IMG/VR virus record: IMGVR_UViG_3300046170_000062
Location: 1 to 25,648 of that record
From: a virus
Strand: one strand, 5' to 3'
DNA: 25,648 bases
The notes under the pieces are model-generated. The model had not been told where the DNA came from. It made no database searches and saw only the letters and a program-made list of their open reading frames with translations. A program made the translations under genes and the position numbers. Positions 6,785-25,648 of this stretch are shown in pieces (position 1 is the first letter of the stretch; every line of letters starts with the position of its first letter).

Positions 6785-7137
6785 CAACAATTATATCAGA
6801 CAAGGACGGCAACGAGATTGCTGCCGCATCAGCCACAGTACCAAGCGACAGGCACTTCCGTAATGCTTGGGCTTTGGACGGCACGGTCATCACAGAGGAT
6901 TTGGTAACAGCCAAAGCAATCTTTGCCGACAAGATTAGAGAAGCCCGTAAGCCGCTGCTAGAGGCACTAGACGCTGACTACATGAAGGCTCTTGAGTCTA
7001 GCGCAGACACAGCCGCAACCGTGGCTGACAAGCAAGCCCTGCGTGATGCCCCGACTGCTGGCAACGGGGCAACCACAATCACTGAACTCAAAGCAGCTTG
7101 GCCTTCATGCTGCGGCACAAGCCCATACGAGGAGTAA
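6781..7137 (+). CDS. Tail-region protein, FRNAW family (possible fibre assembly protein)
   Basis: The ATG at 6781 overlaps the preceding stop (ATGA). Residues about 24-40 read DRHFRNAWALDGTVI, followed by an amphipathic helix DKIREARKPLLEALDADYMKALE; this arrangement is typical of a phage family placed after tail fibres and often called tail assembly or XkdW-like. It is 118 residues long with a Cys-Cys near the C-terminus. The function is not established. The next gene starts 3 bp downstream after a good GAGGAG site. Confidence 0.68.
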   Translation: MTTIISDKDGNEIAAASATVPSDRHFRNAWALDGTVITEDLVTAKAIFADKIREARKPLLEALDADYMKALESSADTAATVADKQALRDAPTAGNGATTITELKAAWPSCCGTSPYEE

Positions 7138-7140
7138 ATT

Positions 7141-7503
7141 ATGGCTAATTCATACACTTGGGACTTCCCAGCACTTGATGTTTGCAACGAGGCCCAGAAC
7201 GGACACTCTGATTGCATCAATACAATTCATTGGCGTTTGACTGCTGTATCTGACAGCGAGACTAATGCTGAAGGTGAAGCACTAAATGTCACAGCCTACG
7301 GCACCGCTGCTGTCGAAACACCAGACGAGGGTGACAGTGACTATGTTGCTTTCGATGACATTACAAAAGACTGGTGTAAGACAAAGACGCTTGAGGCTTT
7401 GGAAAAGACTGAGGCTGAAATGCAGACAATGCTTGATGACCAGATGACTGCGCTTGCTAATCCTCCAATGCGTCAAGCTGTTCCGGCTGGCTGGGCTGCT
7501 TAA
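7141..7503 (+). CDS. Conserved marine phage tail-region protein (DUF7936-like)
   Basis: The 120-residue product begins MANSYTWDFPALDV, has an INTIHWRLTAVSDSE segment and a C-terminal helical LEALEKTEAEMQTMLDDQM; this is the pattern of DUF7936-type proteins seen near tail genes of marine phages. GAGGAG lies a few bases before the ATG. It is probably a virion or tail accessory protein. No enzyme motif is visible. Confidence 0.72.
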   Translation: MANSYTWDFPALDVCNEAQNGHSDCINTIHWRLTAVSDSETNAEGEALNVTAYGTAAVETPDEGDSDYVAFDDITKDWCKTKTLEALEKTEAEMQTMLDDQMTALANPPMRQAVPAGWAA

Positions 7504-7523
7504 AGTTGAAGCTACAGCAAGTT

Positions 7524-7706
7524 ATGGAACCAGAACTCAAAGTCCAGATGGAACTGGATGCTCATGAAAAAGAATGTGCCATCCGTTATGAGATGGTGCA
7601 TGGCAAACTTGAAAGCCTCGACAAGCGTATGTGGAGGCTTGAGGCTCTGTTGATGGCCTCTACTTTATCTATACTGGCAGCAGCGGTAGGAATACTAACG
7701 ACATGA
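7524..7706 (+). CDS. Small single-pass membrane protein, possible lysis accessory
   Basis: I choose the ATG at 7524 over a TTG at 7506; neither has a strong ribosome site. The 60-residue product has an N-terminal charged helix with HEKECAIRYEMVHGKLESLDKRMWRLE, mentioned in parts as HEKECAIRYE and KLESLDKRMWRLE, then a hydrophobic C-terminus (ALLMASTLSILAAAVGILTT). A coiled-coil head plus a terminal membrane anchor is common among phage lysis-region proteins of unknown role. It overlaps the next gene by ATGA. Confidence 0.68.
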   Translation: MEPELKVQMELDAHEKECAIRYEMVHGKLESLDKRMWRLEALLMASTLSILAAAVGILTT

Positions 7707-7924
7707 CACAATTCGTCTTTGCTCTCGTCACGATGATGGGGCAACAGACGATCTCGACAGAATACTTCGAGAGCATCGATGTCTGCTTGTGGTACAGCAG
7801 CCGCCTAAACAAACAACATCACCACACCCACCACTTCTCACACGATCTAGCTGACAAGCATGTGTTTGCTCAGTGCATCCCTACGCGAGTCAATCCAGAC
7901 GATGTAACAATCTATAACCGATAG
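7703..7924 (+). CDS. Hypothetical protein, His-rich middle
   Basis: The ATG at 7703 overlaps the preceding stop (ATGA). The 73-residue product starts MTQFVFALVTMMGQ, which could be a weak signal peptide, and has KQHHHTHHFSHD in the middle. I do not recognise it. The histidine cluster could bind metal, but nothing else supports that. Its place in the coupled lysis-region operon argues that it is real. Confidence 0.6.
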   Translation: MTQFVFALVTMMGQQTISTEYFESIDVCLWYSSRLNKQHHHTHHFSHDLADKHVFAQCIPTRVNPDDVTIYNR

Positions 7925-7932
7925 AGGCACAT

Positions 7933-8628
7933 ATGGACCCCATTACGATTGCGTCAGCTACAGCCAGCTTTGAGGCAATTAAAAGGGGCCTATCGTTAGG
8001 CAAGGACGCTCTATCGCTAAGTGCCGAAATCGGCAAATGGATGACTTGTGCAAGTGATGCCGATCAACAGGCCCGTGAAGCAGCAAATCCCCCCCTTTTC
8101 AAAAAGATGTTCTCCAGCACCAGCGTCGAGGAAGAAGCAATCAACAGCTTCGCCTTAAAGAAGCGCATGGAACAGCAACGAGCAGACTTAAAGACTTGGA
8201 TCGAAATGACGCTGGGTCGCAAGGCTTGGCAGGATCTTTTGGAGGAAGAAGCCACCATAAGAAAGACCCGAAGAGACACACTCTACAAGCAACGTGAGAA
8301 ACGAAGGAAGTTTGTCGAGATAGTTGGTTGGATCGTCATGGGCTGTGTCGCTGCTGGTCTCCTCTACGGTTTCGTAATGTTCCTTAAAGGCCATGCAGCC
8401 AAAGCAGCCACCACACCTGAGCATGTCGTATGTCGATTGGTCGGTTGTGAGAAGATCGATGGGATGCGCTGGTGCGTCTACAGAGGCGCAGGGAACACAC
8501 AAGCCAGCATAATGCTGGAGTTGTCTGAGTGGTTCCCCCGCGAGTTTATGTGCAAATACGATCCCGACGCACCACCCCCACCCAACCTCAGAGATACATT
8601 GAAAGCCATCAAGGAGAGCCAACAATGA
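7933..8628 (+). CDS. Membrane protein with coiled-coil N-terminus, lysis/virion region
   Basis: The 231-residue protein has a helical N-terminus (MDPITIASATASFEAIKRG), a charged coiled-coil region (about 75-130), one clear membrane segment (FVEIVGWIVMGCVAAGLLYG, about 127-150) and a C-terminal domain with four cysteines (CRLVGC, CVYR, CKYDPD). If the N-terminus is cytoplasmic, the Cys-rich domain would be periplasmic and disulphide-bonded. Similar MDPITIA... proteins occur in marine phages near lysis genes without known function. AGAGG precedes the start. The next gene overlaps by ATGA. Confidence 0.7.
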   Translation: MDPITIASATASFEAIKRGLSLGKDALSLSAEIGKWMTCASDADQQAREAANPPLFKKMFSSTSVEEEAINSFALKKRMEQQRADLKTWIEMTLGRKAWQDLLEEEATIRKTRRDTLYKQREKRRKFVEIVGWIVMGCVAAGLLYGFVMFLKGHAAKAATTPEHVVCRLVGCEKIDGMRWCVYRGAGNTQASIMLELSEWFPREFMCKYDPDAPPPPNLRDTLKAIKESQQ

Positions 8629-8825
8629 TACTAAAATATGTTTTCTTAGTAATCGTCATCCTGCCAAGCGGAGAAACCAGTGTTCGCTCCTCGCCAGTAG
8701 ACGCTTGCCCTAACATTCGACTTGTCCACGAAGGCTACGAAAGCCTAGTTGAGTCAGGAGACATTAAGCAGTGGGACGCTCAATGTATTCTCTTTCAGTT
8801 TGAAATACCGAAGGAACAAACATGA
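8625..8825 (+). CDS. Small secreted or membrane-anchored protein
   Basis: The ATG at 8625 overlaps the previous stop, making this start preferable to in-frame ones further upstream inside the neighbouring gene. The 66-residue product begins MILKYVFLVIVILPSGET, a short hydrophobic signal-like segment, followed by a polar domain with two cysteines. It is placed directly before the holin and could act at the envelope during lysis. Similarity to a known spanin is not evident; function unknown. Confidence 0.65.
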   Translation: MILKYVFLVIVILPSGETSVRSSPVDACPNIRLVHEGYESLVESGDIKQWDAQCILFQFEIPKEQT

Positions 8826-9193
8826 TTGCCGCGCTGATCCCCGCTGTCAGTGGGCTACTTGACAAGTTTATACCCGACGCAGATGAGAAAGCTAAGATTG
8901 CCCATGACATCGCAACCATGTCTGAGAAACACGCTCAGGAACTTGCGCTTGCTCAGATCGAAGTCAACAAGGCCGAAGCCAAAGGCAACTGGTTCCAGTC
9001 AAGCTGGAGACCTTTGACTGGCTATGTTTGTGTGTCTGGATTTGCAGTGAACTTCCTTATATCACCCTTAGCTGCTGGCTTTGGCATCGATATTCCACAG
9101 GCTGACACAAGCACTATGCTCCCTGTGCTTATGGGAATGTTGGGCTTAGGTGGCATGAGATCCTTTGAGCGTGTCAAAGGGGTAGGCAAGTAA
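8822..9193 (+). CDS. Holin of 3-TM type
   Basis: The 123-residue protein matches the layout of the 3-TM holin family also found in gene transfer agents: N-terminal IAALIPAVSGLLDKFIPDADEKAKI, described in parts as a hydrophobic start then an amphipathic KAKIAHDIATMSEKHAQE helix, a conserved NWFQSSWRPLTGYVC turn, then hydrophobic segments (GFAVNFLISPLAAGF and MLPVLMGMLGLGGM) and a basic tail RSFERVKGVGK. The role is to form inner-membrane lesions that let the endolysin reach peptidoglycan. It overlaps the previous gene (ATGA) and its stop overlaps the next ATG (TAATG). Confidence 0.8.
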   Translation: MIAALIPAVSGLLDKFIPDADEKAKIAHDIATMSEKHAQELALAQIEVNKAEAKGNWFQSSWRPLTGYVCVSGFAVNFLISPLAAGFGIDIPQADTSTMLPVLMGMLGLGGMRSFERVKGVGK

Positions 9194-9393
9194 TGGCTAA
9201 ATGGGGGCTACATGAGAGGACCACAGAAGAACAAGCGAGGATAAACCATGCCAGAAGTAACTATGGAAAGAGTGTTAGCTTGGAAGCTCCTGCCGAGGCT
9301 GATGATGCTTGGGATGTCGCTATCAAGCTGGCGGGTAGTGGAGTGGTTTATGACTTTAGAGGAGCCAACAAGCCAACAGGCGGCCCTAGTTAG
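9193..9393 (+). CDS. Possible overlapping ORF of unknown function
   Basis: The ATG at 9193 sits on the holin stop (TAATG), which favours translation by coupling. The 66-residue product is polar and unrecognised. Its last 146 bp overlap, in another frame, the small membrane protein at 9248-9451, which I recognise with more confidence. It may be a genuine overprinted gene, or only its first part may be translated. Low confidence. Confidence 0.35.
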   Translation: MAKWGLHERTTEEQARINHARSNYGKSVSLEAPAEADDAWDVAIKLAGSGVVYDFRGANKPTGGPS

Positions 9394-9451
9394 TGTGGTT
9401 ACTGGTGTTCTAGGAGGAGCTTTTGCTGTCTGGTTAGGACATGAAAAGTAA
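9248..9451 (+). CDS. Small two-pass membrane protein, lysis region
   Basis: The 67-residue product has a hydrophobic WKLLPRLMMLGMSLSSWRVVEWFM segment, quoted here in parts as WKLLPRLMML and WRVVEWFM, then EEPTSQQAALVSVVTGVLGG and a C-terminal FAVWLGHEK. I recognise this pattern (LLPRLMM, VEWFM, TTQQ/TSQQA, VVTG) from small membrane proteins near endolysins of marine phages. AGGA lies 9 bases before the ATG. It could be a second holin or antiholin; the role is inferred from topology and position. Confidence 0.75.
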   Translation: MPEVTMERVLAWKLLPRLMMLGMSLSSWRVVEWFMTLEEPTSQQAALVSVVTGVLGGAFAVWLGHEK

Positions 9452-9546
9452 TGGAATGGTGGGAAATGTGGCTAGTTGCCATGATCACAACCAACACTTT
9501 AGTCAACGTCATTAGATGGGCTTTGGATATAAGGAAAAACAAATGA
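9451..9546 (+). CDS. 31-residue single-pass membrane peptide
   Basis: The ATG at 9451 overlaps the previous stop (TAATG), and its own stop overlaps the endolysin start (ATGA). The product begins MEWWEMWLVAMITTNTLV and ends in a basic IRKNK tail: one hydrophobic helix with a positive end. The tight coupling on both sides makes it likely that it is translated. It may tune holin function; that is inference. Confidence 0.6.
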   Translation: MEWWEMWLVAMITTNTLVNVIRWALDIRKNK

Positions 9547-9956
9547 ACAGAGAGCGTATCAGAGAGCAGCTTATATTACATGAGGGGCTCAGGCTGGAGC
9601 CTTATCGATGTACGTCCGACAAGCTCACGATTGGAGTGGGCCGCAACCTAGATGACCGAGGTATCTCAGAGGTAACTGCAATGCAGATGCTCGATGAGGA
9701 CATCGATATCGTCTACGAGGAGCTACAAAAGGTCTTCGAGGACTTCACAGATATGCCAGAGATCGTCCAAGAATCACTGGTCGATCTTGCCTTCAACATG
9801 GGTACTCCGACCTTACTAAAGTTTAAAGCCGCTGTACGGGCCTTAAAAGCCCAGCAATGGGGTACTGCTGCCGACCAGATATTGGATTCGAGGTACGCAA
9901 GACAGGTGGGTCAGAGGGCACAAACTGTCGCTGACAACATAAGATCATGCGGCTAA
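9543..9956 (+). CDS. Endolysin, GH24 lysozyme (muramidase)
   Basis: This 137-residue enzyme cleaves the glycan strands of peptidoglycan. The GH24 active-site pattern E-x8-D/C-x5-T is E14 (LHEGLRL), C23 (YRCTSD) and T29 (LTIGVG), with Cys in the place of the T4 lysozyme Asp, a variant known in the family. The following GVGRNLDDRG and DLAFNMGTPTLLKFK segments are also typical. No signal peptide is visible, so release should depend on the holin. I choose the ATG at 9543, which has AAGGA upstream and overlaps the preceding stop; an in-frame ATG at 9516 would add nine unsupported residues. Confidence 0.9.
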   Translation: MNRERIREQLILHEGLRLEPYRCTSDKLTIGVGRNLDDRGISEVTAMQMLDEDIDIVYEELQKVFEDFTDMPEIVQESLVDLAFNMGTPTLLKFKAAVRALKAQQWGTAADQILDSRYARQVGQRAQTVADNIRSCG

Positions 9957-10114
9957 GGAACCATGTTGCTAAGACACTGAGGGAGGCCAGATACAAACCT
10001 AAAGTGATCAGGAGCAAGAAAGTCTATAATCGTAAAAAGCAAAAAACACCGATACGAGGCCCAATGAGGCTATCGGTGTTTTTTAGTTTTGCGTTAGATC
10101 GGATGATCAGTTAA
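9947..10114 (+). CDS. Short basic phage protein (DUF7230-like) at the end of the late operon
   Basis: The ATG at 9947 lies 10 bp inside the endolysin end. The product begins MRLRNHVAKTLREARYKPKV and is very basic (RSKKVYNRKKQK); short N-VAK-L-x-x-x-R-Y-x-x-x-V proteins of this type follow endolysins in marine phages and match DUF7230-like proteins in my memory. The first about 33 residues carry this pattern; the frame then continues through the terminator hairpin to a stop at 10112-10114, so the C-terminal 22 residues may be non-essential. 55 residues in total; function unknown. Confidence 0.6.
   Translation: MRLRNHVAKTLREARYKPKVIRSKKVYNRKKQKTPIRGPMRLSVFFSFALDRMIS
10041..10084. terminator. 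Bidirectional intrinsic terminator between convergent operons
   Basis: AAAAAACACCGATA (10041-10054) and TATCGGTGTTTTTT (10071-10084) form a perfect 14-bp stem around a 16-nt loop. The A-run and T-run provide a U-tract in both directions, so it can end both the rightward late transcript and the leftward replication transcript. Confidence 0.9.
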
Positions 10115-10127
10115 GAACCTGTGCAGC

Positions 10128-10204
10128 GGTTCCGTAGCTCAACTGGATAGAGCAACTGCCTTCTAAGCAGTAGGTTCGGGGTTCGAGTCCTCGCGGAATC
10201 GCCA
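10128..10204 (+). tRNA. tRNA-Arg (anticodon UCU)
   Basis: A complete cloverleaf of 77 nt including encoded CCA. The acceptor GGTTCCG pairs with CGGAATC (one G-U), discriminator G. The D-arm region GTAGCTCAACTGGATAGAGCA is normal (D-stem GCTC/GAGC). The anticodon stem ACTGC/GCAGT encloses loop CTTCTAA, giving UCU, which reads AGA and AGG. The T-arm is CGGGG-TTCGAGT-CCTCG with one G-U. It lies after the late terminator, and its CCA directly abuts the stop codon of the leftward zinc-ribbon gene, so leftward transcripts run antisense across it. It probably supports AGA-rich phage translation or replaces a host tRNA. Confidence 0.95.
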
Positions 10205-10354
10205 TTACCTTTTAGGATCATAGATGCGTGGTTTGCGCTCTTCCTGTGGTGGTAGTTCCTTGATTGCACAATCAGCACAGATGTACCAACCACTGCGATC
10301 ATAGAAAGCATAGTTCTTTCTACACTTGTCGCACTTGGGTCGCTCTCTTGTCAT
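10205..10354 (-). CDS. Small zinc-ribbon protein
   Basis: The 49-residue product starts MTRERPKCDKCRKNYAFY and has a second pair CADC about 19 residues later; two CxxC pairs at this distance form a zinc-ribbon. Its ATG overlaps the ribonucleotide reductase stop (ATGA), and its stop is directly next to the tRNA 3' end. It is the last gene of the leftward operon. Function unknown; such ribbons often bind nucleic acid or proteins. Confidence 0.75.
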   Translation of the reverse strand: MTRERPKCDKCRKNYAFYDRSGWYICADCAIKELPPQEERKPRIYDPKR

Positions 10355-12303
10355 GACGCGATATCCACGATCTCACATGCTCCAGAAGTACACGCCAAGG
10401 TCTGTGATCCAGAGGTGCTGTCTTCAAGCTCATAGAACCTAAGATCATCCCACACCAGCTTTACAGGCATCTTAGCTTTCATCTCATCATACTCCTCCTC
10501 AGTACATTCTTGGTAAGGAGCTTGAGCGTATGTGTGGTCGGAGTGTGGTAGAAAGCTGATACCACTGCACAGATCGAAGTTCTCATAGACCCATGCGCCC
10601 ACTGCAAGCCACTCAGGATCACGAACTGTGATGGTCACAGATGGTTTATGCTCACACCACTCCTCAGCATAGGTCTTCCAAAGCTCTAGCTGTTCCACGG
10701 CTGTCATCTTGTTTCTTGTGACTGCACCTTTTGGTGACTTAGTTGGAAAGCTAAAAACAGTAGTGCTGTCGGGCTTCATGACATCAGGCTCCGCTGGTAT
10801 CCCCGCATCCTTCAGGAATTGTGTCAGCGGGTCTTTGTTATCGCCCCGCACTGTGCGGATGTAATAGTCAGAATGTCGTGCGTGGATGCCACTAGCACTG
10901 TCAACTAATTGACTGACTGTGCCGGAAGGTTTGACACAAGTAATAGCGGCAGAGACCTCTATTCCCATCTTGTCTGCATACTCTTTGTTAGTATCAATGG
11001 CAGTCTGCTTCATCTCAGCCAACCAGCGTGGGCTATCGACGTTCTTAGACAACACAGGATGATCCATGATTCCTGTCAGAGACACGCCCAGCAGCCGCTC
11101 CTCAGCAGTGTTCTTAGTCCACACTTTGCGAAGGTAAGGCATGTGAGTAAACGTAGCCTGTGCTGTACCAAGGATCGTGGCAAGTCTGACCTTACGCTTA
11201 AGGCTCTCCAGATCATCATGCTCCCGCACGACAACCTCAGTCAGATTGCAGAACTGACCACCAGTACCAGCTAGGTAGTTACCGTTGCTGTCTATCTTTG
11301 GTCCTCTTAGGATGATCTCGCTACATGGGTTTGTGCCCCAAGCATAGCCTGTGTCTCGTCTACCGTTCTTAGCCACATGAGCTTCTGCTGCTACACGGCT
11401 GAAGATACCACGCTCACCAGACTTAGACTCAACCAGAGCAAGCCATTCCCGCATGAATGTCTCCATGTCAGGCTTCTCTGTATAGCAAGCTGAGTTATTA
11501 GCCAAAGCTCGTTGCGGCTCAGTCTCCCACCACTGGCCAGACTTTGCATGGGACATTCTCTGGTCACTTAGGTTGCTGAGGCTGATCATTGCTGATCTGC
11601 GTACACCACCCACAACGACGACCTCACCGATCTTACACATGATGTCATGGACTTCGATGCTATTGAGCTTGCGTCCAGCAGCACCCTTAAACTTGGCGAC
11701 AACAAACTTAAACAGATCATCAAGAGGCTCAGGACCACTGGCGCGGCCCCCAAACGTCTTGAGGCGGCTACCAGCAGGACGTACTTTGCTTAGATCCCAG
11801 CGTGGTATGTCGCCAACATAGAGAAGACTGATGAGCTTACGCAGTGCAGTAGCCCACCCCTCCTTAGAGTCCTTAACCACGATGACATCTTCGCCGTCTT
11901 CGATGGACCCACAGATATCTGGTAAGCAGTTAATAGACTGCCTTTCGACTGAGAACCCAACACCTGTGCCACATAAGAGGATGAACATTGCCTCATCAAA
12001 GGCTCTTGGGTGATCTACAGGCAAATAAGAACAATTATATATACAAGTGTTATCACGATCAGCAGCAACACCAGCGGTCATCAAGGCTCTCATAGATGGC
12101 ATGACCTCTAAGCCAAGTATTGCATCCTCAAGCTCCTCAAGATCAGAGGCTGAGAGGACTACATTGTCACTCTCTGCGAGGTAATCTATGTAACGCTGGA
12201 CTGTCTCAGACCATGTTTCGCGCCTGTTTTCATCTTCAAGCCATCTAGCGTATCTGCTTGTAGCAATAAAGGTCTGGTAGTCTGTAGGCAATAGGTTACT
12301 CAT
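10351..12303 (-). CDS. nrdJ: Cobalamin-dependent ribonucleoside-triphosphate reductase (class II)
   Basis: This 650-residue enzyme makes deoxyribonucleotides with adenosylcobalamin and does not need oxygen or a second subunit. The Cys residues of the monomeric class II family are present: C91 in YNCSYLP, the catalytic N325-P-C327-S-E329 loop, C352 in QFCNLTE, and the C-terminal redox pair C638/C643 (ACTSGACEI). CGTGVGFSVER and VGGVRRSAMISL are further family motifs. The start at 12303 follows GGAGG and gives the family-like MSNLLPTDY; in-frame starts further upstream lie inside the neighbouring gene. Phages with this enzyme would need host or environmental B12. It lies at the end of the replication operon with MazG and exonuclease, so its job is dNTP supply. 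Confidence 0.93.
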   Translation of the reverse strand: MSNLLPTDYQTFIATSRYARWLEDENRRETWSETVQRYIDYLAESDNVVLSASDLEELEDAILGLEVMPSMRALMTAGVAADRDNTCIYNCSYLPVDHPRAFDEAMFILLCGTGVGFSVERQSINCLPDICGSIEDGEDVIVVKDSKEGWATALRKLISLLYVGDIPRWDLSKVRPAGSRLKTFGGRASGPEPLDDLFKFVVAKFKGAAGRKLNSIEVHDIMCKIGEVVVVGGVRRSAMISLSNLSDQRMSHAKSGQWWETEPQRALANNSACYTEKPDMETFMREWLALVESKSGERGIFSRVAAEAHVAKNGRRDTGYAWGTNPCSEIILRGPKIDSNGNYLAGTGGQFCNLTEVVVREHDDLESLKRKVRLATILGTAQATFTHMPYLRKVWTKNTAEERLLGVSLTGIMDHPVLSKNVDSPRWLAEMKQTAIDTNKEYADKMGIEVSAAITCVKPSGTVSQLVDSASGIHARHSDYYIRTVRGDNKDPLTQFLKDAGIPAEPDVMKPDSTTVFSFPTKSPKGAVTRNKMTAVEQLELWKTYAEEWCEHKPSVTITVRDPEWLAVGAWVYENFDLCSGISFLPHSDHTYAQAPYQECTEEEYDEMKAKMPVKLVWDDLRFYELEDSTSGSQTLACTSGACEIVDIAS

Positions 12304-12601
12304 GGCTTGGGTTCCTCCCTTCAAGCTGGTTGATACGCATTTCGCAGTAGCGGATGGCTTTTCTGATATCGTTGATCTCTGATTGAACAGAGTCTTGGTT
12401 TGGGTAGAGCTTGGTCCCTGCTCTGGACACATACTTGATGACGTTACCCACCCAAAAAGAAAGCCCGTTAGACATGATGAAGTCTACGGGCTGGAGCCTG
12501 TGTTGAGCGTAATGCTCTGGTTGTTTTATTGTATCAGGTGGCGGGGGTTTCTCGTAGTGTCGTTCTCCCGCTTTATTCTTCATAAACTCTTCATGCCGCA
12601 T
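12296..12601 (-). CDS. DUF3310 family protein
   Basis: The 101-residue protein contains the DUF3310 core: KQPEHYAQHRLQPVDFI, then SFWVGNVIKYVSRAGTK and a C-terminal helix DIRKAIRYCEMRI. The family is widespread in phages next to nucleotide-metabolism genes; some members are labelled nucleotide kinase without good evidence. It overlaps the exonuclease end by 11 bp and the reductase start by 8 bp, consistent with one translationally coupled operon. The start ATG follows GGGAG. Confidence 0.85.
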   Translation of the reverse strand: MRHEEFMKNKAGERHYEKPPPPDTIKQPEHYAQHRLQPVDFIMSNGLSFWVGNVIKYVSRAGTKLYPNQDSVQSEINDIRKAIRYCEMRINQLEGRNPSHE

Positions 12602-13340
12602 GGCTGGCTCCCGTATAGAGTATTGGTTTCTTCTTCTTAGCGTCCCAATCTTCCCACCTCAGTATTCGAGCAAGACGGGCTTGGGTCAGTGCATCTTCCT
12701 CAGTAAGACCCGCATCTAAATAAGCCTTTTCGACAAGGGACCATGCGGGTCTCTGTCCTAGCAGCTTCTCAGCAGTCTTCGGCCCGTACCCTTTGAGGCC
12801 GGAATAGCCGTCAGTGAGATCCCCTGTGAGGCACTGCATCAAGAAGTGCTTGTCAGCTTCTTCAAGCGATGTATGAAACCGCTCTTGAGACATTGGCCTG
12901 TAGAGCTTTGCTGGGATGCTCTTCATGTCCTTGTCGTCAGACACGATGATGGCTTTGCCCTTGTTCTCAGGCTTAGTGGCTAAGATGCCCATGACATCAT
13001 CAGCTTCGAGGCTAGGCATTGTAATTGTGTCAAAGTGGTGCTTTGCCCAATCAAGCATGGCGATATAGCCAAGAGGCTTTCGGGTCTTTTTCCTGTTACC
13101 TTTGTATGTGCTGCTGACTTGTTTGCGGAAGTTAGATGTAGACGACAAACATAGAAGCACCTTGTCACTGTGGAGAGTTTCTCTGAACGTATCTACTTGA
13201 TCGAAGAACAACTCCTTAGCCAGCTTTAGATCAGTGTCTAAGCTCCACAGATTAGCTCCCTCATCTTCATCCCAGCAGATTTCCTGTTCTGTCGCAGCCG
13301 TGGCCCGATACAGATACAGATCGGCGTCAATCAATAACAT
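12591..13340 (-). CDS. 5'-3' exonuclease (T7 gp6 / flap nuclease type)
   Basis: The 249-residue protein has the motifs of the PIN-like 5' nuclease family: N-terminal LLIDADLYLYRA (metal-binding Asp), YKGNRKKTRKP (substrate arch), LEADDVMGILA and VSDDKDMKSI (metal-binding Asp/Glu cluster), and GDLTDGYSGLKGYGPKTA, a helix-3-turn-helix DNA-binding motif. In T7 the equivalent degrades host DNA and removes RNA primers. Its start overlaps the preceding gene's end by 14 bp. Confidence 0.9.
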   Translation of the reverse strand: MLLIDADLYLYRATAATEQEICWDEDEGANLWSLDTDLKLAKELFFDQVDTFRETLHSDKVLLCLSSTSNFRKQVSSTYKGNRKKTRKPLGYIAMLDWAKHHFDTITMPSLEADDVMGILATKPENKGKAIIVSDDKDMKSIPAKLYRPMSQERFHTSLEEADKHFLMQCLTGDLTDGYSGLKGYGPKTAEKLLGQRPAWSLVEKAYLDAGLTEEDALTQARLARILRWEDWDAKKKKPILYTGASHAA

Positions 13341-13677
13341 TCTCTAGCTCCCTCAAGTATTCGCCACCAAAGTCTGAGAGGTGCCAGATGTTGCCCCACT
13401 CTTCTTCGGATAGCTTAGTTGTGATTAGGTTTTCTGTGGCTGCTACAGCGATCATGGTTGCAGCGTCCCGTGCGAACTTGGACTTTGTGGTGAACCCGCC
13501 AAGCTGGGCTTTCTTCAGAACAACAAACATAGCCAGTAAGGCTTCGTCTGTTCTTTGGTCGATGTCAGTGGGTGTCAGCCCAGCTTCTTCCGACTGCATA
13601 CTCTGCGTCGATTGGGATTCTGAGGCTGTACGCTTCTCCAGCTTCTTTCGCGCATCTTCGAGCGAGATCACCGACAT
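13327..13677 (-). CDS. Conserved phage protein of unknown function overlapping DNA polymerase
   Basis: The 116-residue product begins MSVISLEDARKKLEKRT after AGGAAG, a good ribosome site, and continues with ALLAMFVVLKKAQLGGFTT and a C-terminal HLSDFGGEYLREL, possibly a winged-helix-like end. The first 113 bp lie inside the DNA polymerase gene in another frame. I have seen similar ISLEDA-type proteins between polymerase and exonuclease in marine podoviruses, without a known role. An internal ATG (MQSEE) could be used instead, but has a weaker site. Confidence 0.72.
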   Translation of the reverse strand: MSVISLEDARKKLEKRTASESQSTQSMQSEEAGLTPTDIDQRTDEALLAMFVVLKKAQLGGFTTKSKFARDAATMIAVAATENLITTKLSEEEWGNIWHLSDFGGEYLRELENVID

Positions 13678-15337
13678 ATTCTTCCTGTCCTTTCCTGACT
13701 GCGATCTGCACCTCGTCGTGAATCCACCCGACAATCGTGCAGTCCAGTTTCTTTTCTTTGATTGCTTTGGAGATAAGGGAGACCCACTTCGAGCAAATGA
13801 CTGCTCCTGCTGATTGCAAGAGACTGTTCAAGCTCGTATGGCTGGAGTTGACCTTAATGCGGTTACTACCAAGGGTCTTAATGAAGCCCTTTGATGCTGC
13901 TTTCTCCACATTGGTCTTTAAGAGACCATAGGCAGGGACGGCTTCAATGAAGTTATCCTTTAGTCTTTTTCCTTCTTTGGCTCCTTTGCCAACGATGGAA
14001 CCGACTTTGGCATCTCCCGCTCCGTAGAGTGTAGCGTAGAGCCATGTTTTTGCTTGGTCCCGTGTAGCAAGTCCCGTTGCCTTCTGGTTGTAGCTATGGA
14101 TATCGGATTCGAGGATGACTTTCGCATATTCACCTTCATCGTAGAGTGCGAGGAAATGGGCAAAGAGCCTGATCTCTATTCCTGACAGATCACTACCAAC
14201 TAAGGAGTATCCTGACGGCACAGTGAACAACTCACGACACTGCTTGCCATAAGGTAGCCGCACGGCTGGCACCTGAGACAGATTCGGCTGTATGTGTGTA
14301 CAGCGTAGTGTCCTAGTTGACGGTGAGATGATCCTGTGCCGGAGCTTGCCGTCACTATCGACCTTCTTCATCCATGCCTGTGGACCCTCTGCGAGTTGAC
14401 CAATGCGTTTCTGTATTAAGAACAATTCAGACAGCTTCTTGGCTTCTGGGTAGTCAAGAGAACCAAGAACGACATCATCGATAATCGCATGACCCTGTGG
14501 TGTAGTTTTAACGGGTTTCCACCCATACTTCTTGGTCAGACAGAACTCGATATGACGCCTTGAGTTGTGGTTGAACTCGACTGTCTTTGTCTTGATGAAC
14601 GGCACACCCTCGACATAGCCAAGGGTCTTGTTATTGCGCTTGGGTATGAATGTCTCAGAGACCTCCCACGGCTCGAACAAGTCCTGTAGCTCATGGTCTA
14701 ATTCTTCTCGCCTGACACAAAGCTCTGCATACAGCTTGCCAGCCTTTGCCTCATCAAAGGTCCACCCAGCATTGCCAATGTCATCAGCAATAGCTGATAT
14801 CTCATGGGCTAGATCGACAGCTTCGGTAGTCTGCTTCTCCGGTTTTAAGAAGTTGTAGAGTGCCATCGTCACTCGTACATCCTGTTCACAGTAATCTTGC
14901 ATAGCCTGTGACCAGTGTTCCCAACCGCCGTCATAATCACCTTTTAGGAAATCACCATTTAAACGGTTTTGGAGTCTCATGCCCCACGCTTTGAGGCCGT
15001 GGGAGCCATAGAACTTCTTGGGCATGACATCGTTAGCCCAGTTGTACTCAAAGTCCTCGTTCTTCAGATCTGCTCTGATTAAGCGAGACAAAACCAATGT
15101 GTCCGTGCGCTTACCTTTGAAGGGCCACGATGGATATAGCTTCTCAATAACCTTGAAGTCGTAGCCAAGACCATTGTGAGCAACTAGCTCATCAGCCTTG
15201 CAAAGCATTTCCAGACCTTCTTTGATCTCATCGGGGCCATAGCTCCACACAGGCTGGCCTTCTTCGCCGACAGCAATGCAATGGATAACATCAGGGTCCA
15301 GCCCGTCAGTCTCTAGGTCAAAGAACAGCCGCCTCAT
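13565..15337 (-). CDS. DNA polymerase, family A, with 3'-5' exonuclease
   Basis: The 590-residue replicative polymerase has an active-looking proofreading domain (D7 and E9 in FDLETDG, D60 in HNGLGYDF, D153 in YCEQDV) and the polymerase motifs: A with D383 (GSDLSGIEIRLFAHF), B with R426, K430, Y434 and Y438 (RDQAKTWLYATLYGAG), C with H540-D541-E542 (GWIHDEVQ). Y434 corresponds to E. coli Phe762 and T7 Tyr526. It is shorter than T7 polymerase (704 residues), chiefly in the linker and thumb. No 5' nuclease domain is present; that activity is the separate downstream gene. The start overlaps the MazG stop (ATGA). Confidence 0.95.
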   Translation of the reverse strand: MRRLFFDLETDGLDPDVIHCIAVGEEGQPVWSYGPDEIKEGLEMLCKADELVAHNGLGYDFKVIEKLYPSWPFKGKRTDTLVLSRLIRADLKNEDFEYNWANDVMPKKFYGSHGLKAWGMRLQNRLNGDFLKGDYDGGWEHWSQAMQDYCEQDVRVTMALYNFLKPEKQTTEAVDLAHEISAIADDIGNAGWTFDEAKAGKLYAELCVRREELDHELQDLFEPWEVSETFIPKRNNKTLGYVEGVPFIKTKTVEFNHNSRRHIEFCLTKKYGWKPVKTTPQGHAIIDDVVLGSLDYPEAKKLSELFLIQKRIGQLAEGPQAWMKKVDSDGKLRHRIISPSTRTLRCTHIQPNLSQVPAVRLPYGKQCRELFTVPSGYSLVGSDLSGIEIRLFAHFLALYDEGEYAKVILESDIHSYNQKATGLATRDQAKTWLYATLYGAGDAKVGSIVGKGAKEGKRLKDNFIEAVPAYGLLKTNVEKAASKGFIKTLGSNRIKVNSSHTSLNSLLQSAGAVICSKWVSLISKAIKEKKLDCTIVGWIHDEVQIAVRKGQEEYVGDLARRCAKEAGEAYSLRIPIDAEYAVGRSWADTH

Positions 15338-15678
15338 CGGTTGTCTCCTGACCCTTTAATTAGGTCTAGCTGCATCCTACGATCCAACTTACGGAGGTTC
15401 ATCTCAGCCACAGAAGAAAGGTCGAACTGGAACTGTGCTGCAAGGACAGCGAGATACCACAGGACATCACCAGCCTCTTTCATGACTTCGAGGCGTTTGT
15501 CATAGTCCATGTCAGCCAGTGGCTCACCTTGGTCGCGTAGGTGTTTCTTGAGCTTGTCACAGATTTCGCCGACCTCAGATGACAGGCCCAAGGCAACATA
15601 CTCAATCTTGTTCTCTTCCACGATAAAGGTTGTTTCAGCTTGCCGCTGGTACTCATCAAGTGTCAGTGGGTTTGTCAT
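15334..15678 (-). CDS. MazG-like nucleotide pyrophosphohydrolase
   Basis: The 114-residue protein has the MazG/all-alpha NTP pyrophosphatase pattern: LGLSSEVGEICDKLKKHL with the first acidic metal ligands, then KEAGDVLWYLAVLA with the E-x2-D pair. Such enzymes hydrolyse (d)NTPs to monophosphates; in phages they may sanitise dNTP pools or alter host nucleotide signals. GGAG lies before the ATG. The stop overlaps the DNA polymerase start. Confidence 0.85.
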   Translation of the reverse strand: MTNPLTLDEYQRQAETTFIVEENKIEYVALGLSSEVGEICDKLKKHLRDQGEPLADMDYDKRLEVMKEAGDVLWYLAVLAAQFQFDLSSVAEMNLRKLDRRMQLDLIKGSGDNR

Positions 15679-15832
15679 TGGTTGCTCCTTGTTTTCTGAG
15701 AGATCGTTTTGCTTTGCGTTCCAAAGCTGCTAACCGCCTTCTTTTGGATCTTGTTCGCTTTGTCCTCAAAACGCCGCTTTTGGCAAACCACGAATCACAG
15801 GTACTGTTCCCCCGTATTTCAACCATCGTCAT
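15656..15832 (-). CDS. 58-residue very basic protein, unknown function
   Basis: The ATG at 15832 overlaps the primase-helicase stop codon (TAATG), and the frame ends inside the first codons of the MazG gene. The product is extremely basic (RTKRTRSKRRRLAALERKAKR) with one Cys; part of it is quoted as TKRTRSKRRR. It fills the 150-bp gap that would otherwise exist in a tightly packed operon, which is the main support. DNA/RNA binding is suggested by charge only. Confidence 0.55.
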   Translation of the reverse strand: MTMVEIRGNSTCDSWFAKSGVLRTKRTRSKRRRLAALERKAKRSLRKQGATNDKPTDT

Positions 15833-17439
15833 TAGAACTCACTCCCTTCTGGGACCAATCGTCCCGTGTCTCTGTTGTATTGAATGTTCCCTGCCCAGCC
15901 TGTTTCACCGCTCCAGCGGTTCTTGAGGACTGACAGGATGCGGGTGTCGCTGTCTGGATCGTCTTTATCGACGGCCATAGACAGGCACATATCGGATAGC
16001 TGGGCGATTGAGGCTGACCCTCGAAGGCTCTGGAGCGTGGGCTTTTCACCCTGCTCGAACCCCTTGTCGCCTGATGGTCGCCTCAGATGGCTTACAATGA
16101 TCAAGCCAATGTTTAGCTCTTGGACGACCTCAGACCGCAGCCGTGTCATGGCTATGTCAATGAGCTTACGTTCATCGTTAGTTGCTAGACCGCTAACTAG
16201 AATACTTATGTGATCGAGGACCACCCACTCGACGCCAAGAGCTTTGACCATGAATGTAATGCGCTGAATGATCGTGTCGATGTTGCAGCTACCAAAGTGA
16301 TCGTAGAGGTACACCTGTCGATCCTCTGGGAACAACGCATCAAAGGCTTCTTCGATCTCTTCCCTCGACGCTTGGTCTTTGTTGACCGTAATGTTCTTGT
16401 TGAGGTGGATGCCTACTAGCCCTTGCAGTGTGCGTTTGTTGGTCTCCTCCAAACACAAAAGGCCCAGCTTTTGACCGTCTTGATGTAGACTGTAGGCAAT
16501 CTCTCTAACCAGAGTAGTTTTACCCATCCCAGAACCCGCTGTGATGGTCACAAGTTCCCCGCGCCGCAAACCGCCAGTTATGGCGTTAAGCTGGTCGTAA
16601 GGGTACTTAATGGACGAAGCAGCATCATCCTGACCTATCACTGTTCTGAGATCGGCAGCGGCGACTATGCTATCAGGGCGATATTCTTTCGCCTCGAAGA
16701 TAGCACTCACCACGGCTGCTGTTTTGCCAGCCACTAGGCACTCATTGATATCCTTCATCGGAAGGGTGGCTATAAATGCTTTGCCCACAGGAAGGATTTG
16801 TGCAGCTTCGAGACTAGCCTTCTTTCCTGCGTCGTCTTGGTCAAAGCAAAGTACCACCTTGTCCCAACCAGACACGAAGTCATAGTTGTCTTTGATGGCA
16901 CGAACCGCGCTTTGACAGCCGTTAGGGAGACCAACTGTGCCAGCGTGGTATTTGCCAAGGCAAGCTGCTGCTGAGAGCGTATCAATCTCACCCTCACAGA
17001 TGACAAGTAGCTTACCCTTGGCCCATAAGTGACTACCAAACAATGTTGCTTGCTTGGAGTTACCTAAAACTGAAAAGTCTTTGCCTTTAGTCCTAACCTT
17101 CTGTGCAACTACCAAACCGTTCTTGTCACGGTAGTTTGCAACTTGGACAGGCTCACCGCTCTTCTTTGCAACGAAGTAATCAAAACGCCTACACAGATCC
17201 TCACTCAGCTTGCGGCTGTGAAGGGCTGTAAAGCGACCAGTAAGGAGACCACTAGGCAAAGTGGAGGGAGCAGTAATTGCCTTTTCTGTGGTCTCCCCAC
17301 TAGCTTGCACGGTAGTCCCGCAAGAGAAACAATGCGTGTGCCCATCGTCATACAGAGAGTTTGCATCGGAACTGCCGCACTCTTCGCACGGTAAGTGCCT
17401 AACGAACTCGCTCTCATTCTTCTGTAATTGGTTGTCCAT
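15832..17439 (-). CDS. Primase-helicase (T7 gp4-like)
   Basis: The 535-residue protein joins a primase and a replicative helicase. The N-terminal zinc ribbon is C18-x2-C21 and C37-x2-C40, which recognises primer start sites. The TOPRIM domain has E149/E151 (VICEGEIDTL) and D200-Q-D202-D203. The RecA-like helicase has Walker A G302-SGMGKTT, a Walker B VVLDHIS and LIIVSHLRRP, then LRGSASIAQLSD. Together with the family A polymerase and SSB it forms the replisome. GGGAG precedes the start at 17439. Length is close to T7 gp4A (566). Confidence 0.94.
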   Translation of the reverse strand: MDNQLQKNESEFVRHLPCEECGSSDANSLYDDGHTHCFSCGTTVQASGETTEKAITAPSTLPSGLLTGRFTALHSRKLSEDLCRRFDYFVAKKSGEPVQVANYRDKNGLVVAQKVRTKGKDFSVLGNSKQATLFGSHLWAKGKLLVICEGEIDTLSAAACLGKYHAGTVGLPNGCQSAVRAIKDNYDFVSGWDKVVLCFDQDDAGKKASLEAAQILPVGKAFIATLPMKDINECLVAGKTAAVVSAIFEAKEYRPDSIVAAADLRTVIGQDDAASSIKYPYDQLNAITGGLRRGELVTITAGSGMGKTTLVREIAYSLHQDGQKLGLLCLEETNKRTLQGLVGIHLNKNITVNKDQASREEIEEAFDALFPEDRQVYLYDHFGSCNIDTIIQRITFMVKALGVEWVVLDHISILVSGLATNDERKLIDIAMTRLRSEVVQELNIGLIIVSHLRRPSGDKGFEQGEKPTLQSLRGSASIAQLSDMCLSMAVDKDDPDSDTRILSVLKNRWSGETGWAGNIQYNRDTGRLVPEGSEF

Positions 17440-21848: not shown

Positions 21849-22754
21849 TTAAGCAGACTTCCGACCGTCTGCAAGGGACTGCATCTTCGCGGCTGCATCT
21901 TTTGCGGTGTCTGTCTCCAACTTCACATACTTCATCGTTGTCTTAATGCTCTTGTGACCCATGAGCTTCGACACTATTAAGCTACTGAGATTTAGCCTGT
22001 TTGCGAAATGCGTCGCTGCTGTGTGTCGTGTCACATGGAACACAAAGTGCTTATCGTCAGGTGCGACCTTCTCGCGCAGACGATTCCATGTTCTGTAAAA
22101 CTCTGTGTCGCAGAAGAAATGACGCTTTCTACTGCCCCCAGACTTCAGACCCTCGTTAATCGCGTTTAGAGAGTCATACGCGGCCTTTGCGTCGTGGGTA
22201 AGGTGGAAGTACCTCTCACAACCATTCTTGCTGTCAGGGAGCCACAGAACGGGATCACCGTCGTCGTCGTGATATAGCTCTGCGTCAACGCCAATTCTGA
22301 TGATCTCGCCAAGCCTCGCGCCAGTGTGCAGCGCAAAGGTAAACATGTGTTCCATCCATGCGTTTCGGGAGTATCTCAGGAACGTCGTGATCTTCTTGAT
22401 CTCGTCGTCAGAGAAATAGCGCGGTCTCCCACGCTGCTCCTCGTAAAGATCGACGGAAACCTTGTGATTCACACTGCCGTTGTCCAAGGCGTTGTTCATC
22501 ACAGCGGTCACAGCGACCCCGTAGCGGTTAGCTGTAGACTCTGAGAGCTTCAACTTACTGACGACATGATCCATAAAGATATGTATATCATTGGTCCTTA
22601 CGTCGCTGATGGGTCTGTCGCCACAGCCTCTGAACTCGCCGAACTTTATGATCCGGCGTCGCGCATCTTTCTTGTGTTTGTCACCGCTCTTACGAAAGAT
22701 AATGTCGTGGTGAGACTCAGCATATTGAGCGAAAGTGTATTGGTTGGTCATCAT
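21849..22754 (-). CDS. Tyrosine-family integrase / site-specific recombinase
   Basis: The 301-residue protein has a SAM-like N-terminal DNA-binding domain (about 55-105) and a complete catalytic set: R147 (HTGARLGEI), K176 (PDSKNGCER), H240 and R243 (FHVTRHTAATHF), H267 (LMGHKSIKTT) and nucleophile Y276 (MKYVKLE). It should join phage attP to a host attB, usually within a tRNA gene. GAGGAGG precedes the double ATG; the second (22751) has better spacing. It is the last but one gene of the early block; a tRNA-like element at 24932-25014 is the best attP candidate. Confidence 0.94.
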   Translation of the reverse strand: MMTNQYTFAQYAESHHDIIFRKSGDKHKKDARRRIIKFGEFRGCGDRPISDVRTNDIHIFMDHVVSKLKLSESTANRYGVAVTAVMNNALDNGSVNHKVSVDLYEEQRGRPRYFSDDEIKKITTFLRYSRNAWMEHMFTFALHTGARLGEIIRIGVDAELYHDDDGDPVLWLPDSKNGCERYFHLTHDAKAAYDSLNAINEGLKSGGSRKRHFFCDTEFYRTWNRLREKVAPDDKHFVFHVTRHTAATHFANRLNLSSLIVSKLMGHKSIKTTMKYVKLETDTAKDAAAKMQSLADGRKSA

Positions 22755-24054: not shown

Positions 24055-24603
24055 CTAACCCGCGTGGTAGATGTACTGCGTCCCAGCAACATCTATCGCG
24101 GTGTAACCGTCATAGGAGAGATCACGACCGAAGGCTTCATAGTCGATGTAATGAGAGAGGTGTTCAGGGATCTCGCCCAGCAACCCATCATCGACGAACT
24201 GCTCTGCAAGCTCCGTAAATGTCACATTCTCATAGATCGCCAAGTCCTGAGCCACGTCATCGCTGGGGCAGTACTCATCGAACTGGCAGGTATTCAGGCC
24301 GTCACCGTAGACGATACAAGCCCTCACAATGTCATCATCGTCCCAAGTTTCTACAGCCTCGAAGAAAGCAGACAATGTTGATTGATTAGGCTTTACTGCG
24401 TTAAACAAAACGACCTCAAGCGCCTTACCGTCAACCAAATCAATCTCGTATTCCTCGACAGCTTGACCGTAAACGTTCACATGCTTTGCAGCTTTCGCTT
24501 TGTATTCCTTCATTGTGTCGAAGTGGAAACCAGCGGCACTCAAGTCGTAGGGCTGCGCGAACAAGCTCAACCCCTCGACCTTCACAGCAACAGCGGCACT
24601 CAT
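24055..24603 (-). CDS. ardA: Antirestriction protein, ArdA family
   Basis: The 182-residue protein is strongly acidic and ends with IPEHLSHYIDYEAFGRDLSYDG, of which YIDYEAFGRDL is the hallmark C-terminal segment of ArdA. ArdA proteins mimic bent B-form DNA and block type I restriction-modification enzymes, protecting incoming phage DNA. The FDEYCPSDDVAQDLA and ELAEQFVDDGLLG segments fit the elongated acidic fold. It is the second gene from the right end of the leftward early block, so it would be among the first made after infection. The start overlaps the upstream stop (ATGA). Confidence 0.82.
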   Translation of the reverse strand: MSAAVAVKVEGLSLFAQPYDLSAAGFHFDTMKEYKAKAAKHVNVYGQAVEEYEIDLVDGKALEVVLFNAVKPNQSTLSAFFEAVETWDDDDIVRACIVYGDGLNTCQFDEYCPSDDVAQDLAIYENVTFTELAEQFVDDGLLGEIPEHLSHYIDYEAFGRDLSYDGYTAIDVAGTQYIYHAG

Positions 24604-24902
24604 GATGCACCCCCTTCGACCAGAGCCTTGGCGGTGCCACTAGCACTATAGTCACTGATCGTTTCTTCAGGTGCATTAACGTGGATCAGGTAAACCCAAG
24701 TGCCATCCGCGAATCGCAAGTTGGCAGAGTCACAAGCCTGTGCCTCACTCCAAAGGTGATCGAGTGTCGAGTCCAGAGAATGTGCTGGTTCGTAACCCGT
24801 GTCAGGATCACGCGCGTCATACGCATCATCAGTCTCGTAGAAAACGTGGAAACTAAGGTTTTGGGCCTTAGCAGCTTTAAGAAGTTGGTATCCTGTATTC
24901 AT
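24600..24902 (-). CDS. Acidic hypothetical protein, first gene of the early block
   Basis: The ATG at 24902 follows GGGAG at proper spacing; an in-frame ATG at 24917 overlaps that site and is less likely. The 100-residue product starts MNTGYQLLKAAKAQNLSFHV and is acidic (YETDDAYDARDPDTGYEP). It directly precedes ardA and overlaps it by ATGA. No family recognised; a second DNA mimic or an ArdA partner is a reasonable guess from charge and coupling. Confidence 0.7.
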   Translation of the reverse strand: MNTGYQLLKAAKAQNLSFHVFYETDDAYDARDPDTGYEPAHSLDSTLDHLWSEAQACDSANLRFADGTWVYLIHVNAPEETISDYSASGTAKALVEGGAS

Positions 24903-24917
24903 CGTTTTGTCTCCCAT

Positions 24918-24932
24918 GTGACATTATGTCAC
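24918..24932. promoter_or_regulatory. Perfect 15-bp palindrome upstream of the early block
   Basis: GTGACATTATGTCAC: two 7-bp arms around a central T. It lies 16 bp before the first early ATG and touches the tRNA-like element. The size and symmetry fit an operator for a dimeric repressor, which would control early genes in a temperate phage. No repressor gene is recognisable in the window. Confidence 0.5.
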
Positions 24933-25014
24933 TAGAGACCTTTCGATGATTAAGCGGGGTATCTCGAACCCCCAACCTGCTGATTAGAAGTCAGCTGCCA
25001 TCTAAGGTCTCTAG
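24932..25014 (-). other. tRNA-like element (anticodon UCU, no D-arm); candidate attP
   Basis: On the minus strand, CTAGAGACCTT (25014-25004) and AAGGTCTCTAG (24942-24932) form a perfect 11-bp outer stem. Inside are an anticodon arm GCTGA-CTTCTAA-TCAGC (anticodon UCU) and, after AGGTTG, a T-arm-like hairpin GGGGT-TCGAGAT-ACCCC with the usual GGTTCGA sequence. There is no D-arm, and 14-15 extra bases precede the 3' outer strand, so it is not a normal tRNA gene. The anticodon-to-T-loop part looks like the 3' half of a bacterial tRNA-Arg(UCU), the usual content of a phage attachment site for tyrosine integrases. Confidence 0.6.
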
Positions 25015-25142
25015 CCAGTCTCATGACACTGAATCACGCGAATCCATATGTCAACAATAAATGTGCATTTGGCGACACAAATAGACATCAGCAACACATG
25101 CCTCCACAGAGGACCATATATATAAGTGTCGAAAGTGTGACC

Positions 25143-25181
25143 TCTGGCGGTGTTCACAATGGGTGCTTGCGCACTGCCAGA
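25143..25181. promoter_or_regulatory. Imperfect hairpin in the control region
   Basis: TCTGGCGGTG (25143-25152) pairs with CACTGCCAGA (25172-25181) with a single G-T pair, around a 19-nt loop. No T-run follows on either strand. Role unknown; it could be a protein-binding site or part of an untranslated RNA. Confidence 0.45.
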
Positions 25182-25224
25182 ACCACTCACCAAAGGCCAC
25201 GAAAGCACCCTAGACCCTCCGCAC

Positions 25225-25242
25225 AACTTGTGTCCACCCATA
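25225..25242 (+). promoter_or_regulatory. 18-bp shared motif, second copy (inverted)
   Basis: AACTTGTGTCCACCCATA on the plus strand, an exact inverted match to 21470-21487. If the motif is a promoter in the orientation that would drive the RNA polymerase gene, this copy points rightward, out of the window, toward where the late genes would begin on a circular map. Identity is certain; function is inferred. Confidence 0.55.
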
Positions 25243-25365
25243 AGGAACATTGGTTTAACCCATGGTGTGTACATATGAATCTAGTGATTAGACTTTGACA
25301 AGGTATCAAGGTGGCAAAGTGGTAGCTGTAACAGTCAATCATTGTCGATACCTAGAACTAAGATC

Positions 25366-25384
25366 AACCTAAGTTACTTAGGTT
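25366..25384. promoter_or_regulatory. Perfect 19-bp palindrome in the control region
   Basis: AACCTAAGTTACTTAGGTT: two 9-bp arms around a central T. Like the palindrome at 24918-24932 it has an odd length with a T centre, but the sequences are unrelated. It is a candidate operator or recombination-accessory site. Confidence 0.45.
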
Positions 25385-25648
25385 CACAAGTCCCGATTTC
25401 TTACAAAGACAAAAACAGCCCACCACAGACAATATTCAGAACTGAGCCACTCAATGCCTAATGTCTGTGTGTTGTCGGGTCATCTGTGTGGCTGACGTAA
25501 CATCAGCAGCACATAATAATCTAAGTATTACAACGGTTTACACAGGATCACGCTGCGTTTCGGGACTCCTGCGCTGTTTTTAGACCCCCGTGGCCCTCGC
25601 GCTGATCTCAATTCCAAAAAGCCGCTAAAGGTTGCTGTTGTTGTTGTT

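Follow-up and report, generated by a model that had tools for sequence, protein, structure and literature searches.

What is the 83-nt element that lies just ahead of the early genes of a T7-like phage: a phage attachment site (attP), a folded RNA, or both? The window analysed here is a 25,648-nucleotide stretch of viral DNA (IMG/VR record IMGVR_UViG_3300046170_000062, positions 1 to 25,648), and the element lies at 24932-25014. A sequence-only reading had described there a UCU anticodon arm, a T-arm-like hairpin, a perfect 11-bp outer stem and no D-arm, which complementarity and folding confirmed, and had left all three answers standing. The best answer is both, in that the element is an attP and part of a folded mRNA leader; the further suggestion of a tRNA-like RNA species did not hold, and only the attP-spanning stem and a competing pairing with a Shine-Dalgarno sequence are conserved.

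The strand to read is the minus strand, which also carries the early genes. Folding of 25014-24932 as RNA gave -34.4 kcal/mol with a z of -4.36, a stability that none of 200 shuffles reached. The outer stem of 11 bp encloses an inner stem (GAUGG/UCAUC), the anticodon arm and a shifted T-arm; a D-arm is absent. The outer arms, CTAGAGACCTT (5' arm, 25004-25014) and AAGGTCTCTAG (3' arm, 24932-24942), were 100% complementary; composition shuffles of the left flank gave an equal helix about 7 times in 1,000 (p ~0.007), which makes a chance origin unlikely for the 11-bp stem by itself. Extra copies of the arm motif were not in excess within the window. Inside the outer stem, GATGG (24998-25002) pairs with TCATC (24945-24949), the anticodon arm GCUGA-CUUCUAA-UCAGC (anticodon UCU; fold and tRNA alignment) spans 24979-24995, and the shifted hairpin GGGGU-UCGAGAU-ACCCC (GGGGT/ACCCC in DNA) spans 24956-24972, its 3' strand being phage sequence, not tRNA.

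On the same strand, a candidate early promoter was read upstream of the element (25026-25054; TTGACA at 25054-25049 and, 17 nt on, a weak -10 box, CAGTGT, at 25031-25026). Its TTGACA is kept in a close relative (IMGVR_UViG_3300029448_000272), and sigma70-like boxes are clearer at the equivalent position in further relatives. Downstream lie a small hairpin, GTGACA-TAA-TGTCAC (24918-24932), within a larger one that hides the Shine-Dalgarno sequence, and then the GGGAG read as the Shine-Dalgarno sequence of the first early gene (24911-24915), which the relative keeps. That gene (24600-24902) likely starts at ATG 24902-24900; the ATG chosen by the open reading frame caller, at 24917, is absent from the close relative. 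Its stop overlaps the start of the second early gene (24055-24603, minus strand), which matches the ArdA antirestriction protein (PF07275, 8e-10). The 3' arm can pair with the 5' arm or, through GTCTCT (24934-24939), with the Shine-Dalgarno strand GGAGAC (24909-24914). This structure of the attP leader is well supported: the element is part of the 5' leader of the early mRNA on the minus strand, and the outer stem is not an acceptor-stem mimic.

The 33-mer GCTGACTTCTAATCAGCAGGTTGGGGGTTCGAG had exact matches in 68 public genome stretches, of which nearly all came from SAR116 and Rhodobacteraceae. Each alignable case was a tRNA-Arg(UCU), and most shared 36 nt (base 25 to T-loop base 59) before the phage sequence departed. 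Because SAR116 and other Alphaproteobacteria have a tRNA-Arg(UCU) that contains this 36-nt core (24963-24998, minus strand) without a mismatch, the core is, by sequence, very probably the attP of a T7-like integrase phage. The host tRNA that the sequence-only reading had proposed to look for therefore exists, in SAR116 and Rhodobacteraceae, and its suspicion of the shifted T-arm was right, in that the match ends at T-loop position 59 and the tRNA 3' end is left unrestored by the phage. In the close relative the core is 100% conserved within surroundings that are about 87% identical. By analogy with other tRNA-targeting tyrosine integrases, the crossover region is probably the anticodon arm (24979-24995).

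The phage's tyrosine integrase (21849-22754, minus strand) has a SAM-like core-binding domain, matched from residue 7, and a catalytic domain (Pfam PF00589, 2.3e-18). A search for an N-terminal arm-binding domain gave no match, the core-binding match already starting at residue 7-8. A temperate T7-like phage of SAR116-type Alphaproteobacteria is the best explanation of these features, and lysogeny of the window phage itself is putative. A scan of 136 SAR116 genomes, tolerating up to 3 mismatches, turned up no integrated copy, and one of 395 Rhodobacteraceae genomes no related integrase at E<=1e-30 (a search run with no positive control). Two SAR116 single-cell genomes, AG-894-E05 and AG-895-F06 (L054, L071, L012, L016), hold two to three tRNA-Arg(UCU) 3' halves within a few kilobases, which suggests stacked integrated elements.

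With identity going no further than the T-loop, the host tRNA would lose its proper 3' end on integration. The window also carries a complete tRNA-Arg(UCU) (10128-10204, plus strand; ARAGORN), a probable replacement tRNA, which differs from the SAR116 host tRNA at six bases forming three compensated pairs, all between tRNA bases 28 and 66. The close relative keeps this tRNA, with a fourth compensated pair. In SAR116 genomes, none of 41 matches was the phage version; all were the host version, though the search pattern permitted the phage version. Judged on sequence, the design fits "tRNA-dependent lysogeny" (PMC10865867) and the replacement-tRNA proposal (PMC8631192): the tRNA is not rebuilt at the junction, and the phage carries a tRNA of the same isotype. 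A replacement tRNA without the att motif has been proposed to prevent super-integration (PMC8631192). Replacement tRNAs have been described before (PMC10865867, PMC8631192, PMC11288001), and the attP and replacement tRNA are known designs, here in a new phage.

Mycobacteriophage Fionnbharth (Guerrero-Bustamante and Hatfull 2024, PMC10865867) has a core of about 10 bp and a lambda-like integrase with an arm-binding domain, whereas the window phage has a core of 36 nt, an integrase in which no arm domain was found, an attP inside a structured leader, and lysogeny that is putative. The Rhizobium Autographiviridae vTRX32-1/RHEph01 (PMC8631192) resemble it as temperate T7-like phages with a complete replacement tRNA lacking the att motif, but their tRNA is Leu, their motif is 12 bp, and their attP is followed by a terminator, not a Shine-Dalgarno hairpin. 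Rhizobium phage RHEph01 (L334, 4750-4940) and Mesorhizobium phage Lo5R7ANS (L175, 8640-8780), both T7-like, have inverted repeats around att, with a terminator-like hairpin downstream in place of a Shine-Dalgarno partner. The Rhizobium phages were set aside as further cases of a leader switch, the inverted repeat being present but the design that of a terminator.

The outer stem was then compared across lineages. In the one close relative known, the core is unchanged, as are 9 bp of each arm, and the two innermost outer pairs are lost; the inner stem is improved (GATGG to GATGA, G-U to A-U), and the hairpin before the Shine-Dalgarno sequence changes from GTGACA/TGTCAC to GCGACA/TGTCGC, which is compensatory. 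Searching IMG/VR with the tRNA core returned a dozen further contigs from this phage family, in which the shared order of elements is lysozyme, terminator, promoter, attP, early genes, integrase, RNA polymerase. Their tRNA 3' half is complete, and their arms are unrelated to those of the window yet mutually complementary (AGAAGTCCTTC/GAAGGACTTCT, ACTTGAAGGC/GCCTTCAAGT and GAGACCTACTCAG/CTGAGTAAGTCTC). The same was true of integrase relatives with other tRNA targets (Met/Ile-type CAU, another Arg) and of two more contigs. The 5' arm is complementary to the 3' arm in every lineage, and the spanning stem straddles attP whatever the tRNA (Arg, Met/Ile, Lys, Cys, Leu), the tRNA half or the next gene. 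Conservation of the outer stem, which the sequence-only reading had named as a test, was thus present as complementarity between differing arm sequences; loss of the stem together with lack of a host tRNA sharing the core was to have counted against both roles, and the opposite was found on each count. No attP was recognised in the sequence examined of six other loci (L112, L113, L120, L122, L127 and L094). The attP sites of HTVC119P, HTVC200P and S-TIP37, used as negatives, had no spanning helix, and on this finding Votkovvirus and S-TIP37 were set aside; the three negatives indicate that recombination itself does not require the helix.

In these attP leaders the 3' arm is complementary both to the 5' arm and to the Shine-Dalgarno sequence of the next gene (CCTTCTAG/CTAGGAGG in L107, CTTCAAGTTT/AAACTTGGAG in L077, CCTTTAG/CTAAAGG in L221, and GTCTCT/GGAGAC in the window). 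The two pairings overlap in bases and so are mutually exclusive. Shine-Dalgarno occlusion alone was common among gene starts in the window and did not discriminate (shuffle p for the window, 0.36). RNAduplex with dinucleotide shuffles over long flanks was significant for most lineages and weak for L075 and G080, so a swap test was used, in which, for sixteen leaders with fixed flanks, every 5' flank was paired with every 3' segment and every 3' segment with every Shine-Dalgarno region. With the caveat that the flanks and the positions of the Shine-Dalgarno sequences were chosen manually, and that some of the lineages are related, 0 of 200,000 permutations equalled the matched set for the 5' arm with the 3' arm, and again 0 of 200,000 for the 3' arm with the Shine-Dalgarno region. 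The result held with one representative per lineage, and a 13-lineage version was also run.

Predicted pairing of the two arms just before the Shine-Dalgarno sequence is made was 0.96 in the window and 0.73-0.99 in 12 of 14 members; in L221 the best nascent helix was other than the spanning one. Predicted pairing of the Shine-Dalgarno sequence in the window was 0.47 with the 5' arm and 0.80 without it, and was higher without the arm in 12 of 14 members. At equilibrium, the predictions for many members made the full lytic leader no more than bistable, and for the close relative (L003) they put Shine-Dalgarno pairing at 0.79 whether the 5' arm was there or not; a switch model therefore needs co-transcriptional folding, in which the folding order matters.

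Isolated pelagiphages have the same arrangement. In HTVC019P, HTVC105P, HTVC109P, HTVC131P and relatives, the gap between the integrase and RNA polymerase genes holds attP within a long stem (GAAGTAGCGGA/TCCGCTACTTC in HTVC105P), whose 3' arm matches the Shine-Dalgarno sequence of the RNA polymerase gene (CTTCTCT/AGAGAAG in HTVC105P, TATTCTC/GAGAATA in the HTVC019P group). For eight pelagiphages together, 17 pairs are predicted in the spanning stem, and compensatory changes occur at two of them. The tRNA fragment of the HTVC019P group is antisense to the gene, so the design is independent of a tRNA promoter. Pelagivirus members (HTVC019P, HTVC105P) thus share with the window the attP stem and the layout of 3' arm and Shine-Dalgarno sequence, and differ in having RNA polymerase as the next gene and Cys or Leu as the tRNA. 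None of the papers found in the searches describes this RNA feature in Pelagivirus pelagiphages. HTVC019P (L173) has its own tRNA-Cys(GCA) (8946-9019, minus strand), and its attP core (in 4627-4877) is a tRNA-Cys(GCA) fragment; it is possibly a further case of tRNA-dependent lysogeny.

Integrated relatives were found in SAR116 genomes. A complete genome (2,753,527 bp; G082) contains a related prophage with integrase, RNA polymerase, polymerase and capsid genes, whose attL and attR lie 39.9 kb apart in tRNA-Lys with about 50 bp common to both. At attL the Shine-Dalgarno sequence of the first gene, the integrase gene, is fully paired (GTCTTTAAC/GTTGGAGAC; shuffle p ~0.005), and strands complementary to the sequence after attL, GACTTTGGG and TCACATGACA, sit at the attR end. 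Four more SAR116 elements with this integrase family have a first Shine-Dalgarno sequence predicted to be paired at 0.80-1.00 (shuffle p <0.03 for two). A degraded prophage of the same family lies at 7129-16026 of another contig (G080:C13, L186), with att sites about 8.8 kb apart in tRNA-Lys, a broken integrase gene, and lysozyme kept beside attR. With the arms 39.9 kb and about 8.8 kb apart, integration does separate them in nature, and by position it splits the control element in two in both genomes.

The attP in this early-operon leader probably serves also as an RNA switch; by breaking it, integration would lock translation of the adjacent gene. Support for this reading comes from the identity of the core, the 3' end that is not restored, the replacement tRNA, the lineage-specific complementarity of both pairings, and the separation of the arms in integrated elements. 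We infer the following course, its crossover point and co-transcriptional folding order included. On unintegrated DNA the leader would be made from the early promoter, and the 5' arm, emerging first, would capture the 3' arm around the att core; this would uncover the Shine-Dalgarno sequence and allow translation of the first early gene. When the integrase recombines the core with tRNA-Arg(UCU), as lysogenic behaviour of the window phage would entail, the promoter and 5' arm would be carried to the far end of the prophage, and the host tRNA 5' half would stand ahead of the 3' arm, the Shine-Dalgarno sequence and the early genes. Any transcript running in from the host would then lack the 5' arm, and the 3' arm would pair with the Shine-Dalgarno sequence and lock translation until excision rejoined the arms; the phage tRNA-Arg(UCU) would replace the disrupted host tRNA. 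A 4-nt overlap joins the first early gene to the second, and several later early genes overlap in the same way, so translational coupling could spread the lock. The gene under this regulation would differ: the early operon in the window, integrase in the SAR116 prophages, and RNA polymerase in the pelagiphages. As a generality, that attP serves widespread temperate marine T7-like phages as an RNA sensor of integration, a three-strand switch that loses one strand by DNA rearrangement with no ligand or repressor, seems to us to have the balance slightly in its favour.

Among the alternatives, an attP whose flanking inverted repeat is a DNA-level feature with no RNA role, whether arm-type sites for the integrase or a directionality factor or a cruciform, is unlikely, even though attP identity itself is very probable and RHEph01 has an inverted repeat around its att motif with a terminator downstream and no obvious Shine-Dalgarno partner. 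The arms differ wholly between lineages, yet the Shine-Dalgarno strand covaries as a third partner, which models of DNA sites do not predict, and the hairpin between the 3' arm and the start codon carries a compensatory change. Attachment sites without the helix (HTVC119P, HTVC200P, S-TIP37) and integrases without a detectable N-terminal arm-binding domain also speak against this explanation. Arms acting as integrase arm sites were not favoured, given the missing arm domain and the third covarying strand.

More doubtful still is a leader switch that has nothing to do with integration, in which the choice between the two hairpins would set the timing of early translation, or answer to a ligand or a processing event, with attP simply lying within it. 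The bistability of many members at equilibrium would suit it, but the spanning stem always straddles attP, with any tRNA, tRNA half or next gene, a constant placement explained only if integration matters. A functional or processed tRNA-like RNA with its own role, either a D-armless tRNA or an 83-nt species, is very improbable despite the stable fold and the order of anticodon arm and T-arm-like hairpin. ARAGORN called no tRNA at 24932-25014, its sole call in the window being the tRNA-Arg(TCT) at 10128-10204 (plus strand), and Rfam gave no tRNA match in 24400-25648 even at E<=5; a tRNA gene or tmRNA was thereby ruled out, the cloverleaf not being recognised by tRNA models. The element moreover has no CCA-bearing acceptor and a shifted T-arm, relatives carry plain tRNA 3' halves with the outer stem away from the acceptor position, and a full tRNA-Arg(UCU) is present elsewhere in the phage. 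Rfam motifs other than tRNA were absent from ten related contigs and seven pelagiphage loci. A chance inverted repeat, which a single 11-bp repeat near a fixed site with so modest a shuffle p (~0.007) might suggest, is the least credible of all, recurring as it does independently in many lineages with different arms, and is contradicted by the permutation test.

The switch reading has partial precedents. In lambda, int retroregulation by sib depends on an RNA hairpin across attP, through which expression is controlled as long as the phage is unintegrated and which integration takes away; sib acts from downstream, via RNase III and mRNA decay. In the window phage, by contrast, the arms belong to the leader, and it is translation initiation that they are proposed to act on. 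Mycobacteriophage BPs (PMC4557955) likewise has its attP placed so that integration alters expression of an adjacent phage gene, but there the repressor protein is truncated, whereas the effect proposed here is an RNA refolding that hides the Shine-Dalgarno sequence. The freely readable literature that was searched described no attP-spanning RNA stem competing with a Shine-Dalgarno sequence. The outer stem and this competition are the new part, and there is a real chance that they represent a new class of RNA switch.

SAR11 and SAR116 bacteria, the hosts of these T7-like phages, are among the most abundant in the sea, and little is understood of how such phages could keep the lytic programme silent once they have integrated; T7-like cyanophages do integrate, though with no stable lysogeny (PMC8776855). 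If the model is true, a switch broken by integration would be a repressor-free lock on RNA polymerase or integrase, and the virus would sense its own integration, with translation of the adjacent gene reporting the integrated or free state. As a genetic part it would be compact, turning a DNA recombination event into an on or off state of translation, and the isolated phages permit a direct test.

The complete tRNA-Arg (10128-10204) and the attP element (24932-25014) flank the early/replication module, one at either end, and point in opposite directions. Relative to its relatives this module is inverted in the window, where the tRNA follows lysozyme and a terminator, the place that attP has in the relatives. 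A past integrase-mediated inversion of the module is possible.
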